From NCBI RefSeq assembly GCF_004365355.1, contig NZ_SODP01000001.1:2053473-2117472 (forward strand): 64,000 nt of DNA. Reading direction: 5' to 3'. Under the pieces are notes generated by a model. The model was not told the origin of the DNA and made no database searches. It saw only the letters and a list, made by a program, of their open reading frames with translations. A program made the translations under genes and the position numbers. Each line of letters opens with the position of its first letter. The stretch's first letter is position 1. Positions 1 to 15,862 of the stretch are shown one piece after another. This stretch comes from Kribbella pratensis (GTDB lineage Bacteria; Actinomycetota; Actinomycetes; Propionibacteriales; Kribbellaceae).

Positions 1-2
1 AA

Positions 3-248
3 CTGAAGGCGTGCGGTGAGCACGTCGACGACAGGCCGCTGACCACGGCGAACGCGCGGGTGGTGCGGGTGCGGGACGGCGTACCGACGGTGACGGACGG
101 ACCGTTCACGGAAGCCAAGGAAGTGCTGGCCGGCTACTACGTCGTCGACTGCAACCTGGAGCGTGCGACCGAGATCGCCGCCCGGCTGCCGGAAGCGCCC
201 TACTCCCCCATCGAGATCCGCGAGTTCACCGATCCGACGGAGCGCTGA
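3..248 (+). CDS. YCII-family protein, 5' end outside window
   Basis: This is the C-terminal part (about 81 codons) of a YCII/DGPF-family protein; the reading frame is open to the left edge, so the start lies outside. The segment from 'TTANARVV' through 'TDGPFTEAKEVLAGYYVVDC' to 'RLPEAPYSPIEIRE' matches the full-length paralogue at 3963-4316 almost residue for residue, with one residue missing after the DC. YCII proteins are small ferredoxin-like-fold proteins that in actinobacteria often sit beside ECF sigma factors; their reaction is mostly unknown. Synonymous changes against the paralogue show this is not a very recent copy. It is followed 10 bp later by a hairpin also found behind the paralogue. 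Confidence 0.85.
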   Translation: MKACGEHVDDRPLTTANARVVRVRDGVPTVTDGPFTEAKEVLAGYYVVDCNLERATEIAARLPEAPYSPIEIREFTDPTER

Positions 249-258
249 CCGTCCAGGG

Positions 259-298
259 ACTTGCCGGCCTCAGCTGGGCGTTGACACCTGAGACCGGC
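259..298. repeat. 40-bp hairpin repeat, copy 1
   Basis: A 40-base sequence beginning ACTTGCCGGCCTCAG and ending CTGAGACCGGC recurs exactly at 4371-4410. It folds as a stem: GCCGG/CCGGC, one C-A mismatch, then CTCAG/CTGAG, with a 14-nt loop. In this copy the stem extends by three more pairs (CTTGCCGG/CCGGCAAG). It lies just past the stop codon of a YCII gene, so a transcription terminator or 3' UTR element is likely, but no U-tract follows. Confidence 0.8.
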
Positions 299-377
299 AA
301 GCTCCTCCCCGGCCCGCCGGAGACCAGGTGGCGCGCCTTCAGGGAGCAAACACGGGTGTAGTTGCCTGGAGCCCGGT

Positions 378-3300
378 TCACGCACGCATGAGGAGCAGGA
401 CCTCTGAGGGCAGGCTGGGATCGTCGGGACGGGCGTCGAGGCAGGTGAGGCTGCTGTGCAGTCCGCGAAGGCTTTGTGCGATCGCGGCGTCGGTGAATCG
501 GTCCGCGACGCAGGTCGCTGCGAGCAAGCCGAGCCGGATCGCCCGGCTGCTGGTGTGCGGCGCAGCGGGGTGGTGGACTGTCGTCGCGAGCGTGGACGCG
601 GACACGACGACGATCCGCCGGGCCAGGATCCGCCAGCATTGCTCGTCGCGGACCGAGTCGGCTCCCGCGAAAGTCGACCCACTGCTCCAGGTTGCATTGA
701 GCAACAACGGCTCGAGCCCGCGCAGGACACCTTCGACCTCGTCAGGAATGGCCGGCGTCATTTCGCTCGACGCCGGGAACAGGTCGACAAGGAACCGCTC
801 GAACTGCAGCCATCCCTGGTCGTGGCGGTATTTCGTCTTGTGCGGTTCCCAGAGCGACAGCAGCACGCTGAGCGCCACTACCGTGAGCTCGAACTGGTCG
901 CGATGAATGCGCGGAGGGGCCCATTGCAGCACGGTTCGGCCCGTCGGCGCGGTGGTGGGCAACGTCGCCGGATCCTGCAGCTCCTGGACAAGCATCGACA
1001 CGTCGTCGGACATCAACGAGTGCGTCAAGATGATGTCGAGCGCCTGACTGATCGCTTCGTCGACGGCGCGCCCCCGACGGAGGGTACGCCGGAACTCGCG
1101 CACCAGCACGGGCGGGACGGGGAAGTCCGTGACCGCCGTCAAACCATCAGCCAGATCCCTGAGGCGGTCGAGCCGCCGGTGCAGGTCGCGATCCTGCGAC
1201 AAGTCTCCGCCACGACTCCGCGCCAGCGCCCGATCCACGTGGATCGCGTCCTTGACCAGCGCCGGCGTCATGCTGTGGTTCAACAGATCGAGCCGGTCGA
1301 GGGTCGCCTTGAAGTCTCGGGTCCGGGCCCGCTCCAGATCCCGCTCGAGAGCAAGGCTCAGTACATAAGGAAGCGCACCGACGACGGAGCGCAGATCGCG
1401 CCGGATGGTCTCCGCGAGCAGGTCGGCGCTCGCGACGTACGGATGCGAGACCCCTGGTGGCACGAACAGCCGTGGTCCGGCGTATCGCTTCCGGGTGCGG
1501 ACCGCGGGCAGGGGATCCGCTCCCGCCGGCGTGACCGCGAGCGGGTCCTCGGCGTACCACACGGTCCGGCGGGTCAGGTCGACGATGACGCCGGTGATCG
1601 GATCGGCGAGCTCGCGGCGTACCGGCAGCCGGTAGGCGGTGCCGTCGTCGAACAGGCCGTTGACCCACATCACGACCTTCTCGACCTCGGCGGCCGAGAC
1701 CCCGACCGCCTCCGCATTGTCGTCCTTCGCGGGCTTGCGAACCAAACCGCCCGGATCGCCCGACAAGTCGACGTACAGGCGATACAGCGACTGCGGGAAA
1801 GGCTGTGCGCACGCCACGGCGCCATTGCTGAGGGTCACGGTGTGACGAAGGCTTCGCGACACGCGAACCGCGGCCATCAGCCGGCGATGCGCGTCACGTG
1901 CCAGGACATCGGATGCCGGCGGATCCGAGTACAGCGTCGCGTCGAGGCGTTCGACGAGATCCACGTCGACCTCGCGGGCTTCGTCGGCACAGTCGAAGCC
2001 CAGCGCCAGTGCGCCGACCGTGCCTGACTTCAGGCATGCCTCGACAACGGGCGACGCGTCCGCGTTCGCCGCCCACAGGAGGATCGTCTCGCGCCACCAG
2101 TCGTTGTCGACCATCGTCGCCAGAGCGTTCACCTCGGGATGATCACGGATCTCCGCGGCCGCGAGGTACTCCTGCAGGGTCTGATGCGCGAACGCGTACA
2201 TCCCGACCTCGCGTTCGACGAACAGACCACTCGTGGTGAGCTCGGCCAGAAACACATCGGCCGTCGCGGCACGCGGGATCCTCGCCAGCGTCGGCCCGAC
2301 GATGTCACTCGCGGACTCCCGCGTCACGTCGCGAACCTCGCGGGTCATCATCGCCAGCGCCAACTTGCGCACCACCTTGGCCCGCTGTTCGGCCTTCGGA
2401 CCTGATCCCGCGGACAGGTTCTTGGCCTCCTGCCGCCGGTGCAGCAGCAGATCGCACATCTCGCCGTACAAGGCCGAGCGGCTGCCGGGCAGCGCGCCGA
2501 GGTACTTGTGCACGTTGGCGATCATCGTCAGCAGCATCGGGTTGGCCGCCAGGTCGTACAGGGCCGGCTGCAGGCGCATCCGACGGAGGAGATCGGTGGC
2601 ATGATCCTTCGCGATCGCCCGGGTTCGCTCGCCGGTCTCGCCGGTGCTGCGGCACTCGATGGCGTAGTACCACCTGTGCACGAACCTGAAGATCTGATCG
2701 CTGGTGAACCGCCGGACCTGCAGTACGTCGGCGCCCCGCACCGGATTCGATTGATAGCCATGCGGCCGCGACGTCAGGATGAAATGGTTCGCCGGATAGC
2801 GCGCGACCTGGTCCTGTACCCACGTGGATGTCAGCCGCCGTTGTTCCTCGACTGCGACCTCGTCCAAACCGTCCAGCATGACGACACAGCGGCCTTTCGT
2901 CAGGCCGCGCTCGAACCAGTCCGCCGTGACCGTACCTTTCAACCAGGTAACGCTCGCGATCAGTTCGGGAATCGACACCCCGGGATCGCGGATGATCTCC
3001 TGGACATGGTCGCGCAGGTAAAGGATCACCGGCAGCCCGCGTTTGTGCCGGCGCCGCTCTCCCAGTGTGATCGCCGTCCGGCGTAGGAGGGTCGTCTTAC
3101 CCGAACCGGGGCCACCGATCACCGCGAAGACCCGCGGCTGACGGCTGTCCAGGAACGAGTCCAGCGACCGGCGCTCACCGGCCGGAATCTCGGCTCCGAC
3201 GAACGGCGCGTGCGTCGCCGTCTGCAACGGCGACGGCGCCAGGCTGACGTCGACATAAACATGCCGGAGCTGGAGCGAGAACTCTCCCTGGGTGGCCATG

Positions 3301-3659
3301 CCGAGCAATTCGACATCACGCACGCCGGCGAGCAGCTGGCTCAGATAACGCGCGCGGTAGCCCTTCAGGAACGCACTCACCCTCCGGTCGACGGCCGCGG
3401 CGGTCCGGGGAATCCACAAATCCCCGACCTCACGGCCGACCCGGAAGACGAATCGTACGACCGCGACCAGGAACCAATAGCCCATCAGAACGACGATGCT
3501 GACCACCGGATTCTGCTGAACCTTCGACCACAACCAGCCGCTGACAGCCACCGGTGGCCCGAAAGCCACCAGGATCGGAACGATCCTCGCCACGATCCCG
3601 GCGTCCGGGAAGTCCCCTGGCCGGTCGGCATTGTTCACCATTCGGCGCGCCCCCAACAC
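378..3659 (-). CDS. Membrane-anchored NACHT-family NTPase
   Basis: A 1093-residue STAND-type ATPase. Two hydrophobic segments lie at about residues 22-43 and 51-73, so the protein is probably membrane-anchored with the rest in the cytoplasm. The NACHT core follows: Walker A GGPGSGKTT (182-190), Walker B VVMLDGLDEV (259-268), a sensor-like FILTSRP (293-299), the winged-helix marker 'NPMLLTMI' (373-380) and 'AHQTLQEYLAA' (491-501). Residues about 650-705 contain 'YRLPVRRELADP', resembling a decayed SUMF1/formylglycine-enzyme motif (YRLPTEAEWEYA). The last ~350 residues are unrecognised. The GTG start is backed by GAGGTGAG five bases upstream. Bacterial NACHT proteins are known phage-defence or signalling ATPases; that role here is inference. 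No partner gene on the same strand is adjacent; YCII paralogues flank it. Confidence 0.85.
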   Translation of the reverse strand: MLGARRMVNNADRPGDFPDAGIVARIVPILVAFGPPVAVSGWLWSKVQQNPVVSIVVLMGYWFLVAVVRFVFRVGREVGDLWIPRTAAAVDRRVSAFLKGYRARYLSQLLAGVRDVELLGMATQGEFSLQLRHVYVDVSLAPSPLQTATHAPFVGAEIPAGERRSLDSFLDSRQPRVFAVIGGPGSGKTTLLRRTAITLGERRRHKRGLPVILYLRDHVQEIIRDPGVSIPELIASVTWLKGTVTADWFERGLTKGRCVVMLDGLDEVAVEEQRRLTSTWVQDQVARYPANHFILTSRPHGYQSNPVRGADVLQVRRFTSDQIFRFVHRWYYAIECRSTGETGERTRAIAKDHATDLLRRMRLQPALYDLAANPMLLTMIANVHKYLGALPGSRSALYGEMCDLLLHRRQEAKNLSAGSGPKAEQRAKVVRKLALAMMTREVRDVTRESASDIVGPTLARIPRAATADVFLAELTTSGLFVEREVGMYAFAHQTLQEYLAAAEIRDHPEVNALATMVDNDWWRETILLWAANADASPVVEACLKSGTVGALALGFDCADEAREVDVDLVERLDATLYSDPPASDVLARDAHRRLMAAVRVSRSLRHTVTLSNGAVACAQPFPQSLYRLYVDLSGDPGGLVRKPAKDDNAEAVGVSAAEVEKVVMWVNGLFDDGTAYRLPVRRELADPITGVIVDLTRRTVWYAEDPLAVTPAGADPLPAVRTRKRYAGPRLFVPPGVSHPYVASADLLAETIRRDLRSVVGALPYVLSLALERDLERARTRDFKATLDRLDLLNHSMTPALVKDAIHVDRALARSRGGDLSQDRDLHRRLDRLRDLADGLTAVTDFPVPPVLVREFRRTLRRGRAVDEAISQALDIILTHSLMSDDVSMLVQELQDPATLPTTAPTGRTVLQWAPPRIHRDQFELTVVALSVLLSLWEPHKTKYRHDQGWLQFERFLVDLFPASSEMTPAIPDEVEGVLRGLEPLLLNATWSSGSTFAGADSVRDEQCWRILARRIVVVSASTLATTVHHPAAPHTSSRAIRLGLLAATCVADRFTDAAIAQSLRGLHSSLTCLDARPDDPSLPSEVLLLMRA

Positions 3660-3962
3660 ACTTTCTCACCTCTATTACAGACGGTACTGCATAAAACCGC
3701 TTAAGTGACACCTTTTGCCCGTAAGAGAACTTCTCCGCCATTACGGAACGCCAAAGACTTGATATTGGCAGAACACCGCACGTCCCTAGATTTTGCTCTA
3801 GGTTTCGCTGGTCCCGAGCAGCGCCCGGTTGCCTTCCACAAGCACCAGCTAATGCCGACCAAAGACCTCTTTCAGAGAATTCGCCCGAGATTGATGTTGC
3901 CCGCAGCAACTTGACCTGACCCGCGGTACGGGCAGCGACGTTCCGGGTGAATGGAGGCTGGT
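3660..3962. other. AT-richer intergenic region between NACHT gene and YCII gene
   Basis: About 300 bases with no convincing gene, visibly richer in A/T than the surrounding coding DNA. It holds the NACHT ribosome-binding site (GAGGTGAG on the minus strand, near 3665-3672), with TAATAG directly upstream as a possible -10 box. A small inverted repeat CCTAGA-N6-TCTAGG lies at 3785-3802. GGAGG at 3954-3958 is the ribosome-binding site of the YCII gene. The composition suits a divergent promoter region and might mark acquired DNA. Confidence 0.5.
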
Positions 3963-4316
3963 ATGAAGTACATGCTGCTGATCTACGGGAACGACGAGAC
4001 GTGGAACACCCTGCATGCCAACGGCATCGACGAGGTGATGGAACAGCACCGCAAGCTGACCGCGGAGCTCGAGGCGAGCGGCGAGTTCATCGACGGCCTC
4101 GGCCTCACCACCACGAACGCGCGGGTGGTCAGGGTGGTCGACGGGGTGCCGGCGGTCACGGACGGTCCGTTCACCGAGGCCAAAGAGGTGCTGGCCGGGT
4201 ACTACGTCGTCGACTGCGCCGGACTCGAGCGGGCGGCCGAGATCGCCGCGCGGCTGCCGGAGGCGCCGTACTCGCCGATCGAGATCCGGGAACTCATGGA
4301 GCCGATGCCTGACTAG
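3963..4316 (+). CDS. YCII-family protein (DGPF domain)
   Basis: A complete 117-residue YCII/DGPF protein starting MKYMLLIYG, the usual beginning of the family, with the signature 'TDGPFTEAKE'. The start at 3963 is preferred over an in-frame ATG 12 bases earlier because that ATG is part of the GGAGG ribosome-binding site (3954-3958). Family members are small ferredoxin-like-fold proteins; many actinobacterial ones are encoded beside ECF sigma factors, but none is present here. The partial gene at the left edge of the window is a close paralogue, and both are followed by the same 40-bp hairpin. Biochemical function is unknown. Confidence 0.9.
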   Translation: MKYMLLIYGNDETWNTLHANGIDEVMEQHRKLTAELEASGEFIDGLGLTTTNARVVRVVDGVPAVTDGPFTEAKEVLAGYYVVDCAGLERAAEIAARLPEAPYSPIEIRELMEPMPD

Positions 4317-4370
4317 ATCGCGCTGCCGGGTGCGGTCGGCAGGGATTCGATCGTGCGGGCGGCTCGAACA

Positions 4371-4410
4371 ACTTGCCGGCCTCAGCTGGGCGTTGACACC
4401 TGAGACCGGC
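4371..4410. repeat. 40-bp hairpin repeat, copy 2
   Basis: Exact second copy of the 40-base element at 259-298, here 54 bp after the YCII stop. The core stem (GCCGG-C-CTCAG / CTGAG-A-CCGGC) and 14-nt loop are identical, while the extra outer pairs seen in copy 1 are lost on the 3' side. Full identity, including the loop, contrasts with the diverged coding sequences upstream. Confidence 0.8.
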
Positions 4411-4970
4411 GAGTCGCTGACTCAGACTGTTGACGTCCGGACAAGCCCGCTGGACGCGAGGATGACCCCACCTGAGGCAGGCTGGTCACCCATGCCCCGG
4501 CCACCTTGGACGAAAACAGTGCTACCAGGCGCAGGCAGCGTGACACCCTCGCCGAGTCGCAGCGTGGTCGTCATTCCATTGCTCAACCTGAGCATCGCCA
4601 CGCGTCGCGGTCGCACGGGGCTGATCGACGAGCTCACCTCGTGGATGCCGGTGCAGACCGCCGGTTGGATCGCAGCTCGTCCGAGCCCCGCGTTGCCGTG
4701 ACTCCTCACATCACGGCACTGCTCGGCGAGCCTTCTCATCGCTGACACACTTCCCCCTTCTCATCGTGAACTGTCCCCGAGTGGCGGTGGACGCGGTCGA
4801 ACGACCGCACACTTCCCCGTCCTCCCCGCACCCGGAAACGACGCGGAAGTGATCAGGCAACCCTTGCTGAGAGTGACGACGTTTTCAAGGGATCGTGATC
4901 GGAATCCCGAGTACCGGAACTTTTGTCCACACCTTGTTCTGCAGGGGAACTACCACCGACTACCAATCAC
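4411..4970. other. Intergenic region, no confident gene
   Basis: About 560 bases between the second hairpin repeat and the sugar transporter operon. Short open frames exist on both strands (for example about 110 codons on the minus strand at 4422-4748) but show weaker third-position bias than neighbouring genes, no convincing ribosome-binding site and no family resemblance I recognise. It may hold decayed coding sequence. The 3' untranslated end of the transporter operon would fall at its right edge. Confidence 0.4.
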
Positions 4971-8195: not shown

Positions 8196-9252
8196 AGCGT
8201 TCGGTGCTGGCGCGCTCGACGATGCGGTGTGGGATCATCACCCTGCGTGGCGGCGCATCCTTGTCGGCCATCCGCTCGGCGAGCAGATCCAGCGCGGCCG
8301 CGACGAACGCGCGCCGGTCGAAATCGATCGTGGTCAGCGGCGGGATCATGAACTGGCTCTCGAGGATGTTGTCGAACCCGGCGACCAGCGTCTGTTGTGG
8401 TACGGCGATACCTGCGCCCCACAGCGCGGCCAGCGCGCCCGAGGCGAGCGAGTCGGTGAAGCAGAAGAACGCGTCGGGCAGTTCGTGGTCGGCCAGATAC
8501 TTCCCGACGACGGTCGCCGCACCCTCCGGCCGCCAACGGTCGAGGCTGATCTCGAGCGACGGATCGATCGGTACGCCGGCCTCCTCGAGCGCCTGGCGGT
8601 ACCCGGTCGTCCGGAGCCGCGATGCCGCCGTACCGGGGCCCTCGGCCGATCCCGCGAGCACGCCGGCGCCCGACGATCCGCGCGGGATCTCCGGCGTACC
8701 GACGGCTGCGATCCGGCGGCAGCCGCGGGACAGCAGGTGCTTGGTCATGTCACGCGCGGCGGCGACGTTGTCGATCGCCACCTGGCTCACGACGTCCTGG
8801 TCGACGTCGCCGATCAGCACGACAGGCGGCAGCGGACCGGCCGACATGACCGCACTGTCGTCGAGATTGACCGGGTTCAGGATCAGGCCGTCGACGAGGT
8901 ACGCGCGGGCCTTCGAGAGCAGCTCGAACTCGCGCTTGGGCTCGGCCGCGGTCTGCTCGATCTGCACGCCCCAGCCCCGCTCGTGGGCCAGCTCGACGAC
9001 CAGGTGGACGATCTCGGCGGAGTACGGCCGGAGCAGGTCGGGCAGCGCGAGGGCGATCATGCCGGAGCGGCCGTTGCGCAGCCCGCGAGCGCTCATGTTC
9101 GGCACGTAGTCGAGCTCGACCAGGGCGCTCTCCACCCGGGCGCGGGTCTCGGGGCGCACGAAGACGACACCGTTGATCACGTTCGACACCGTCTTCGGCG
9201 ACACCCCGGCCAGCTTGGCCACATCTTTGACGGTGGGACGCATGTCGCCCAT
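8194..9252 (-). CDS. LacI-family transcriptional regulator
   Basis: A 352-residue repressor with an N-terminal helix-turn-helix (TVKDVAKLAGVSPKTVSNVIN) and a periplasmic-binding-protein-like sugar sensor domain ending 'LTTIDFDRRAFVAAALDLL'. It most likely controls the ABC importer immediately downstream in response to the imported sugar. Start is uncertain among GTG 9258, ATG 9252 and ATG 9243; ATG 9252 is chosen because CCAGGTG sits six bases upstream. Residues about 205-220 carry a Gly/Ser/Ala-rich insertion (GSSGAGVLAGSAEGPGTAA) in the sensor domain that many relatives lack. Confidence 0.9.
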   Translation of the reverse strand: MGDMRPTVKDVAKLAGVSPKTVSNVINGVVFVRPETRARVESALVELDYVPNMSARGLRNGRSGMIALALPDLLRPYSAEIVHLVVELAHERGWGVQIEQTAAEPKREFELLSKARAYLVDGLILNPVNLDDSAVMSAGPLPPVVLIGDVDQDVVSQVAIDNVAAARDMTKHLLSRGCRRIAAVGTPEIPRGSSGAGVLAGSAEGPGTAASRLRTTGYRQALEEAGVPIDPSLEISLDRWRPEGAATVVGKYLADHELPDAFFCFTDSLASGALAALWGAGIAVPQQTLVAGFDNILESQFMIPPLTTIDFDRRAFVAAALDLLAERMADKDAPPRRVMIPHRIVERASTER

Positions 9253-9280
9253 TGTCACACCTGGCCTACGTTGTCATGTA

Positions 9281-9988
9281 TCAGCGCGTAATCAGCGCAC
9301 CGCCGTTCACGTGCAGTACCTGACCGGTGAGGTGCCGGGCCGCGGGCGACGCGAGGAAGTGGATCGTGCCGGCGATGTCCTCCACCTGCCCTTCGCGCTT
9401 GGTCAACGTTGCCTGGAGCAACGTCTGGCGGCGCTCGTCGGTGAGGCGTCCGCGGAAGAATTCGGTGTCGGCGGTGAAGCCGGGCGCGACGACGTTCGAG
9501 GTGATCCCGCGCGGGCCGAGCTCGGCGGCGATGTCGGCGTTCCACAGCGCGAGCGCGGCTTTGGAAGCGCCGTACGAACCGGGTCCGCGGGCTCCGGCGA
9601 TCGAGCCGAGGTGGACGACTGCGGTGGTGAGTCGCGGGGCGAGCGCGGTGGTGGTGAGGACGGCGCTGATCAGGTTCGCCTCCAGGTTGGCGAGCCAGTT
9701 GGCCTTCAGTTGCTCGAGATCCCCGTCCGGCCGGCCGAAGTCGGTGTTGCCGCCGGCGTTGTTCACGAGGACGTCGACCTGCTCGGGCAGCTCGTGGAGC
9801 AGTCGCTCGATCTGGACCGGATCCGTCGCGTCGCAGACTACTCCCCTGACCCCCAGATCAGCAGCCGTCTTGGCGAGTACGTCGGCGCGGCGGCCGGTGA
9901 TCACCACCTCGTCGCCGTCCGCGCGGAACCGTTCCGCGGTCGCCCGCCCGATCCCGGTCGCGCCGCCGGTCACCACGATCGTCCTCAT
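9281..9988 (-). CDS. SDR-family oxidoreductase
   Basis: A 235-residue short-chain dehydrogenase/reductase with the Rossmann glycine motif TGGATGIG (about residues 7-14), 'NNAG', the catalytic YGASK and the C-terminal 'GQVLHVNGG'. The first M (MRTIVVTGG) at 9988 is the right start: GAGGTG stands upstream, and longer in-frame extensions run into the divergent MarR gene. It probably uses NADP(H) (Arg residues follow the second strand: TGRR). It is transcribed divergently from a MarR regulator across a 45-bp region containing a clear palindrome, so it is the likely target; substrate unknown. Confidence 0.9.
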   Translation of the reverse strand: MRTIVVTGGATGIGRATAERFRADGDEVVITGRRADVLAKTAADLGVRGVVCDATDPVQIERLLHELPEQVDVLVNNAGGNTDFGRPDGDLEQLKANWLANLEANLISAVLTTTALAPRLTTAVVHLGSIAGARGPGSYGASKAALALWNADIAAELGPRGITSNVVAPGFTADTEFFRGRLTDERRQTLLQATLTKREGQVEDIAGTIHFLASPAARHLTGQVLHVNGGALITR

Positions 9989-14539: not shown

Positions 14540-15862
14540 TCATCCCTTGCCTGCGAGAACGTCTTCGACCTTCTGCTTGACGCTACCCAGCGCCGCTTCG
14601 GCGGTCTTCTTACCGCTCCAGACGTCGTCGAGCACCGGCCGGTAGATGGTCCGGGCACGTTCGATGTAGCGGCTGAAGTTCTCGTTGACCGCGTTGCCGA
14701 GCGCCTGCGTCACCAGCGCAAGGTTCGACGGCGACTTGTCGTCGGGCACGAACAGCGCTGACGAGCTCTTCGCCACCGGCATGAACCCGCGCGACTGCGC
14801 GAGCAGCTTCGCGGCCTCCGCGCCGGCGGCGTACTTCAGGAAGCTCCACGCGGTGTCGGGGTCCTTCGAGGCCTTCGGAACCGCGAGCACGGTCAGCGTG
14901 TTGACCGTCGTCCGGCGGACCTTCATCGGCGTCGGGAAGATGTCCCACTTCACCTTCGCGTTCTTGCGCAGGTACGGGATGCCGCTGGTCAGGCCGAGCA
15001 GCATCGCGACCTTGCCGGTGCCGAGCTGGGCCAGCGCCCAGTTCGGGGTCTGCCGGCCGGCGGTGACGGTGGCGAAGTCCGGGTGCACCTTGTGGACCAG
15101 AGCGAGGTCGGCGACCCACTGGACCGCCTCGGTCCCCTGCGGTTCGGCCAGCGTGAACCGGGTCGCGTCCTTCGAGTAGATGCCGTCGCCGCCGTTGCTC
15201 ACGGGGAAGACGGTCTCGAGCGAGGAGTCGGGGAAGATCAGTGCGCCCCAGCGCTCGCCGTTCGGCTTGGTCAGCTTCTTGGCCGCCTCGACGAAGTCGT
15301 CCCACGTCCAGCCGCTCTTGGCCCAGTCCTTCGGCGGCAGCTCGACCCCGGCCTCCGCGAACGCGTCGGTGTTGCAGTACAGCACGCCGGGGTTGGTCAT
15401 GATCGGCCAGGCCGCGTGCGCGCCGTCGGGCTGCTTGGCGAAGTTGTAGGCGACCGGGAAGTAGTCGTCGGGCTTGATCCCGTCCTTCTCCAGGTACGGG
15501 CGCAGGTCGAGCAGCGAACCCTCCGCGTAGTACCCGCGGACGTAGTCGTCGTTGATCCGGATCGCAGTCGGCGCCGCGCCGGAGGACAGCACGGTCCGGA
15601 GCTTGGTGTCGTAGTCGTCACCGGGGATCGACTGGATGTCGAGGGTCTTGCCGGCCTGCTTGGCCCAGTTCTGCGCCATCGTGTACATCGGGGTGCCGCT
15701 CTCGGTGTCCCAGGTCATCCAGGAGGCATTACCGCCACCGCCTCCACTTCCGCCGCTGCCGTTGCTGCCGCAGGCGGCGAGTGGGAGTCCGGCGGCGAGC
15801 GCGCCGCCGCCGATGCCGAGGGCCCGGAGTACCGACCGGCGGGAGATCTCTGATGCGGGCAT
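14540..15862 (-). CDS. Sugar or sugar-acid ABC transporter binding lipoprotein
   Basis: A 440-residue extracellular solute-binding protein (family 1). The N-terminus has twin arginines (ISRRSVLRAL, R8-R9) and the lipobox LAAC with C31, so Tat export and lipid anchoring are expected. It is followed by a Gly/Ser-rich linker. It lies 21 bases behind one enolase-superfamily gene and 4 bases before the other, unusually downstream of its own permeases. The substrate is likely the sugar acid or oligosaccharide metabolised by the surrounding enzymes; this is inferred from context only. Confidence 0.9.
   Translation of the reverse strand: MPASEISRRSVLRALGIGGGALAAGLPLAACGSNGSGGSGGGGGNASWMTWDTESGTPMYTMAQNWAKQAGKTLDIQSIPGDDYDTKLRTVLSSGAAPTAIRINDDYVRGYYAEGSLLDLRPYLEKDGIKPDDYFPVAYNFAKQPDGAHAAWPIMTNPGVLYCNTDAFAEAGVELPPKDWAKSGWTWDDFVEAAKKLTKPNGERWGALIFPDSSLETVFPVSNGGDGIYSKDATRFTLAEPQGTEAVQWVADLALVHKVHPDFATVTAGRQTPNWALAQLGTGKVAMLLGLTSGIPYLRKNAKVKWDIFPTPMKVRRTTVNTLTVLAVPKASKDPDTAWSFLKYAAGAEAAKLLAQSRGFMPVAKSSSALFVPDDKSPSNLALVTQALGNAVNENFSRYIERARTIYRPVLDDVWSGKKTAEAALGSVKQKVEDVLAGKG

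Follow-up and report, generated by a model that had tools for sequence, protein, structure and literature searches.

The locus described here raises the question of how a single gene for a NACHT-type ATPase came to lie between two YCII genes of Kribbella pratensis, on the strand opposite to theirs and with the same hairpin behind each of them. It is located at the start of a 64,000-nucleotide stretch of this organism's 8.37-Mb genome (contig C1), hereafter called the window, whose position 1 equals position 15001 of the stretch L003. We lean towards the explanation that the NACHT gene, which encodes a protein with a predicted core like that of the NOD-like receptors (NLRs) of animal innate immunity, arrived together with one YCII allele when DNA from a related species was integrated by homologous recombination, and that its product is a predicted membrane-anchored, phage-responsive sensor ATPase. 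What can be read directly from the DNA is the order of the genes, the presence of just one YCII gene at this site in relatives, the placement of the two YCII alleles in separate lineages, a 23-bp repeat around a 4,066-bp unit and a short gene relic.

From left to right, the site consists of a CMD (AhpD-like) gene, YCII1, hairpin 1, the NACHT gene on the opposite strand, a leader, YCII2 and hairpin 2. The complete YCII1 (L003:14898-15248, 116 amino acids) has its first 103 bases left of the window. Positions of the other features are as follows (ORF, open reading frame; STAND, signal transduction ATPase with numerous domains).

1..248, plus strand: 3′ part of YCII1 (PF03795, 2.7e-11 for the full protein)
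259..301, plus strand: hairpin 1, with the same 40-nt core as hairpin 2
297..361, plus strand: relic, the 3′ end of a presumed glycosyltransferase gene (DNA homology 297-346)
378..3659, minus strand: gene of a NACHT STAND ATPase, 1093 amino acids (Pfam NACHT, 2e-12)
3660..3935, no strand: AT-richer leader
3936..3958, plus strand: right copy of the 23-bp direct repeat (left copy at L003:14870-14892, outside the window)
3951..4316, plus strand: YCII2 (PF03795, 6.4e-16), homologous start at 3963
4371..4413, plus strand: hairpin 2, at a genus-conserved position between YCII and a convergent small ORF
4422..4748, minus strand: conserved small ORF of 108 amino acids, convergent with YCII

The arrangement described in the original prediction was recovered in these analyses: both YCII proteins match PF03795 (59 bits for YCII2 and 44.2 bits for the full YCII1, cut-off 24) and enclose a single gene on the opposite strand, the hairpin behind each of them is the same over 40 nt and different thereafter, and the region upstream of the NACHT gene is indeed AT-richer (52.9% GC compared to 68.0% for the window). 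A search with this leader (3640-3935) gave no match in any of the 37 other genomes of the genus.

Empty sites and two YCII lineages

Of the 37 other genus genomes, 35 provided their YCII locus as a long stretch; G004 and G027, with weak best YCII matches, were omitted. At all 35 loci a single YCII gene is present and the NACHT gene is absent from the site, and a tally with a hidden Markov model gave 37 YCII genes for the 35 relatives' loci plus the two here. A looser pattern search located the hairpin in the corresponding position at 29 of these 35 loci. Relatives with one YCII gene and no NACHT gene had been anticipated in the original prediction, and the alternative, that all of them carry the NACHT gene and both YCII genes in the same places, was not observed. 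A near full-length relative of the NACHT gene is present in two of the 38 genus genomes, namely the window genome and G030, and in the latter it lies at a different locus, where the flanking DNA in common amounts to short chance matches at most.

The two YCII copies are 79.9% identical at the DNA level, with a synonymous divergence (dS) of 0.66. In the YCII tree, YCII2 pairs with the gene of G019 (support 1.0; 95.4% DNA identity), and ten flanking genes place the window genome with G019 as well (support 1.0). YCII1 groups with the genes of G022, G029, G024 and G017, again with support 1.0. Its identity to the G029 gene is 90.3%, next to a median of 89.1 for the flanking genes, and the corresponding dS values are 0.28 for YCII1 and 0.35-0.41 for the flanks.

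These values bear on the idea that the YCII-hairpin unit was tandemly duplicated in one lineage and that the NACHT gene was inserted between the copies later. The two hairpins and the 23-bp repeats 5′ of the YCII genes are identical, the repeat in a variant found only in the window genome, as a duplication would have left them. However, recent duplicates would be expected to be nearly identical throughout, and copies that differ by 20% of their bases, at the dS given above, and that fall into different clades, each with full support, make this sequence of events quite improbable. The proposal that the NACHT gene is cargo placed between direct repeats is therefore upheld as far as homologous insertion is concerned, for which the empty single-YCII sites speak, and not with regard to a simple duplication, since the copies are two different alleles.

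Judging from the sequences, YCII appears to be exchanged often within the genus. Among 45 close genome pairs, which are not independent of each other and in which the window genome was counted once per YCII copy, 23 had YCII as the least conserved of up to 11 genes compared, and in 15 it lay more than 3 points under the lowest flanking gene. The most distinct example is G026, whose flanking genes cluster with the G029 clade, whereas its YCII gene groups with those of G021 and G033 (support 0.95). When G026 and G029 were compared, mismatches were absent from the start of YCII (its first 30 nt) and from the hairpin, and numbered 4-10 per 30 nt between these two points; beyond this tract, differences also appear in one 30-nt bin on either side (15 before YCII, 11 after the hairpin). 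As the dS of the G026 YCII gene is raised to 0.51 compared to 0.11-0.20, this pattern points to replacement and not to selection on the protein alone. It resembles the known exchange of alleles by homologous recombination between related bacteria in its divergent gene tract, near-identical flanks and tree conflict, while the window genome differs in holding both alleles and a further gene between them. Additionally, an upstream gene at L003:8227-9249, which we take from its sequence to be dehydrogenase-like, was the least conserved in 20 of the same 45 pairs.

A glycosyltransferase relic next to the NACHT gene

The interval from hairpin 1 to the NACHT stop codon contains a short reading frame ending in ...LLPGPPETRWRAFREQTRV-stop, which corresponds to the last codons of a gene that we assume, from its sequence, to encode a glycosyltransferase; the final bases of the right arm of hairpin 1 run into this relic. 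The same gene end gave a DNA match in six of the 37 other genomes. The full gene is present in 12 of 38 genomes, and no full copy was found in the window genome at E ≤ 1e-100. When the relic was aligned locally with each of the 12 genomes holding the gene (gaps left out in each case), identical positions amounted to 48/50 for both G026 and G022, with a 9-bp gap, 46/50 for G029, 45/50 for G017, 44/47 for G024, 41/45 for G007, 52/59 for G035, 41/46 for G032, 33/39 for G011, 39/46 for G021, 23/25 for G033 and 24/28 for G001. The convergent neighbour of the glycosyltransferase gene in G026 and G029 is presumably an aldo/keto reductase gene, and not a NACHT gene.

The simplest route to the present arrangement would begin in an earlier genome, in which the NACHT gene may have been located beside the glycosyltransferase gene of the G026/G022/G029 clade. 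It could then have been joined to a YCII-hairpin unit via a short common sequence near CCGGC/GCAAG. A subsequent crossover between the incoming DNA and the resident YCII unit, within the conserved 5′ end of the latter, would have resulted in two YCII copies around the NACHT gene.

Hairpins and direct repeat

At up to 3 mismatches, the 25-nt core of the hairpin occurs in two copies in the window genome and in one copy each in 11 of the 37 relatives, and it was found in none of 100 shuffles of the window. With two copies in the whole genome, a genome-wide repeat was rejected. Folding of both hairpins exceeds that of shuffled sequences (z -2.75 and -2.48). Across the 20 distinct sequences of alignment A4, taken from 31 hairpins, 94.4% of cells are paired; 12 of the 16 pairs are invariant and hence uninformative, one pair is changed on both sides in 7 sequences, with as many such pairs and fewer such cells (2.8) in shuffles, and one position lacks pairing in 15 of the 20 sequences. 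The hairpins are without a T tract, neither is among the 4 terminator-like sites found, and a search of Rfam yielded no match up to E 1. From its position we infer that the hairpin may act as a two-way terminator between the convergent genes.

The 23-bp direct repeat is found 5′ of both YCII genes, with the copies 4,066 bp apart. In a scan of about 1.1 kb at each of the 35 relatives' loci, the motif occurred at most once per locus; it was recognisable in 11 of the 35, each time in a form other than the exact 23-bp variant. A short direct repeat that brackets an insertion might also be the attachment site or target duplication of a mobile element which carried the NACHT gene by means of its own recombinase. 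Nevertheless, the NACHT ORF occupies most of the insert, in which no recombinase was recognised (ORFs in other frames were not profile-scanned), the hairpin belongs to the empty site in relatives, and there was no plasmid match at 1e-40 and no phage match at 1e-10. Carriage by a plasmid or phage was rejected on these searches, and a mobile element of this type is altogether very improbable.

Predicted architecture of the NACHT protein

The window protein scored 47.7 bits with PF05729 (NACHT, cut-off 26.7), and a NACHT match at E ≤ 0.1 was obtained for 12 of 12 members of alignment A2, which comprises this protein and 11 of 120 listed homologues. The ATG at 3641-3639 (1087 amino acids) is the more likely start and matches that of the orthologues P0001 and P0002. 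Residues P184, G185, G187-T189 and D263-E267 are invariant in 68 aligned proteins (67 of the 120 homologues in alignment A3); we take them to be the Walker A and Walker B motifs, both of which appear intact. The structural model predicts an NLR-type fold for the NACHT core. The order of domains is two membrane helices, NACHT core, a module similar to formylglycine-generating enzyme (FGE) and a helical C-terminus, and in the alignment of homologues a conserved core is followed by a fast-diverging C-terminus. The N-terminal membrane helices expected from the original prediction are supported by Kyte-Doolittle windows near residues 20-44 and 49-75; they consist of two hydrophobic segments in a part of low model confidence, where anchor and effector are indistinguishable.

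The C-terminal part of some 350 residues had been described as unrecognised, which probably does not hold for all of it, since residues 581-710 appear to resemble the FGE/C-type-lectin (CLec) fold. PF03781 was matched by 9 of 30 homologous segments (best 5.4e-5); alignment A5 comprises 29 of these 30 usable segments (L118 left out), drawn from 80 loci, and the structure lists from VIA-align leave other folds possible for this module. It is followed by a helical region of some 350 residues, and a full-length profile searched against the sequences of the PDB gave no match up to 0.01. The nearest named proteins come from Kribbella, among them those of Kribbella sp. NPDC003505, NPDC048915 and NPDC004875 with 93, 88 and 84% identity. 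Homologues are many and occur in actinobacteria and cyanobacteria, and the NACHT gene is another example of an already known kind of protein. Bacterial NLR-related proteins were reportedly treated by Kibby et al. in 2023.

With such an architecture, the C-terminal part, consisting of the reduced FGE-like module and the helical tail, is predicted to sense an infection cue, upon which the NACHT core would exchange its nucleotide and oligomerise. The two N-terminal helices might then bring the oligomer to the membrane, or open it there, and the infected cell would be stopped.

With bNACHT proteins, for example bNACHT25, the window protein has in common an N-terminal extension, a central NACHT module and a C-terminal sensor region in a single protein (PMC12169576), and this likeness extends to its match with the NACHT family of Pfam and to the NLR-type core predicted by the model. 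It differs in that bNACHT25/32 carry a nuclease where two membrane helices are predicted here, and in the FGE-like module after the core; its antiphage role is a prediction. NACHT/STAND proteins with a C-terminal CLec/FGE module that are targets of diversity-generating retroelements (DGR) likewise have an FGE/C-type-lectin-type module after the NACHT core, proposed as antigen sensor (PMC10907252), whereas the putative module of the window protein is short, has no Pfam match of its own and is followed by the long helical region. EruA (NCBIfam NF058535), a NACHT antiphage protein, is similar in the helical part after NACHT (best stretch 366-504, E 1.7e-13); membership in this family was rejected at 49.7 bits compared to an equivalog cut-off of 1000.

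Weighing the explanation

A number of observations weigh against insertion by recombination followed by a role in phage defence. The distance of YCII1 to G029 is about that of the flanking genes and, therefore, YCII1 may be the old resident allele; the ancestor common to G019 and the window genome could then have acquired the YCII2 allele. The proposed insertion by recombination does not hinge on which YCII copy was resident. The glycosyltransferase homology spans just 50 bp, and this gene was seen beside a NACHT gene in no genome. The GC content of the NACHT gene is unremarkable (67.1% compared to 68.0% for the window). The loop of hairpin 1 lacks the extra G of the hairpins of the proposed donor clade and equals that of hairpin 2, so that the hairpin or the junction may have arisen in the recipient. 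As regards the protein, the mean predicted local distance difference test (pLDDT) score of the model is 76, with low values at the N-terminus and in much of 771-912; segment 581-710 of the window protein matched no Pfam family up to E 1, its 130-residue model gave no match below 0.001 with Foldseek alone, and no PADLOC profile was matched over most of its own length.

This last result, together with the low EruA score, adjoining genes that, as read, are not defence genes, and the many actinobacterial and cyanobacterial homologues, would fit an ordinary STAND signalling ATPase of development or stress without a part in phage defence, which would leave the insertion history unchanged. We consider such a function possible, though unlikely. 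The patchy presence in two of 38 genomes and the movement of the gene suit immunity better, as do the conserved core and fast-diverging C-terminus, and NACHT plus CLec/FGE domains have been linked to conflict systems (PMC10907252).

YCII genes as a probable landing site

According to the original prediction, a YCII/NACHT pairing would be a new association if it recurs. No YCII gene was detected at any of 80 loci of NACHT homologues (1.43 Mb, other genera, many loci clipped by contig ends), while the controls, three distant YCII paralogues and both window copies, were recovered. These loci are 80 of 262 found with alignment A2, a set that does not extend to the surroundings of the closest orthologues, P0001-P0004. 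A contig scan with the single NACHT protein yielded no relative. The literature search found nothing joining NACHT and YCII, EruA and NACHT, or YCII and Kribbella, and for Kribbella and NACHT no title on the subject. A functional pairing is thus unsupported, and the YCII genes and hairpins are likely to be features of a landing site rather than partners. Neighbours typical of a defence island, which had been suggested too, were not seen among the adjoining genes as read; no search for defence genes covered the remainder of the window.

Beyond hairpin 2, the small convergent ORF is followed by genes that we take from their sequences to encode a sugar ABC transporter and a LacI-type regulator, and neighbouring genes matched the CMD and xylose-isomerase-like families of Pfam. 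The small ORF is present at 34 of the 35 relatives' loci and has no Pfam family up to 0.1. The stretch between it and the LacI-type gene is variable too: nine of 35 relatives (L060, L066, L067, L072, L073, L080, L082, L088 and L095) have no sugar ABC transporter match there, and a tenth, L084, keeps a fragment of these genes. On the other side, between AhpD and YCII1, a strong palindrome is present at L003:14836-14870 (z -5.34), in which changes relative to G019, common to G032, are matched in both arms; it is a candidate for an RNA hairpin under selection, or for a binding site.

Other relatives show further changes at the YCII slot. In G004 (L050, about 1525-1641), the end of AhpD and the hairpin core are separated by about 116 bp without a match to YCII, and YCII seems to have been cleanly lost with the hairpin kept. 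In G023 (L076, turned, about 8438-9667), a gene for a presumably amidohydrolase-like protein of 409 amino acids is located between YCII and the hairpin, which still adjoins the small convergent ORF. In G037, G014 and G030 (L080, L082 and L088), what we take to be a TetR-like gene and an NAD(P)-binding-type gene are found between AhpD and YCII. Because one defence-like cargo and unrelated additions in four relatives occur here, the YCII slot may be a recurrent landing site. A more far-reaching and tentative idea, which we consider rather doubtful, is that the AhpD-YCII-hairpin site is a natural slot for allele exchange, whose conserved edges (the palindrome plus ribosome-site sequence on the left, the 40-nt hairpin on the right) would let species swap the YCII reading frame, with occasional misfires that capture cargo, in this case an immune NLR.

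Implications

The unusual part of this locus is its readable history, plus the possible recurrent landing site: empty sites, the parentage of the alleles and a remnant of what was probably once the neighbouring gene make this a well-documented bacterial NLR-type gene after a move. If the proposed insertion is true, NLR-type genes can move by recombination at conserved housekeeping edges, with no recognised mobile element involved. With its predicted membrane helices and FGE-like module, the NACHT protein is also a concrete example of the NLR type that is testable in laboratory actinomycetes. If the idea of an exchange slot were true as well, defence genes would spread between chromosomes through a landing site that is driven by homology and needs no recombinase.
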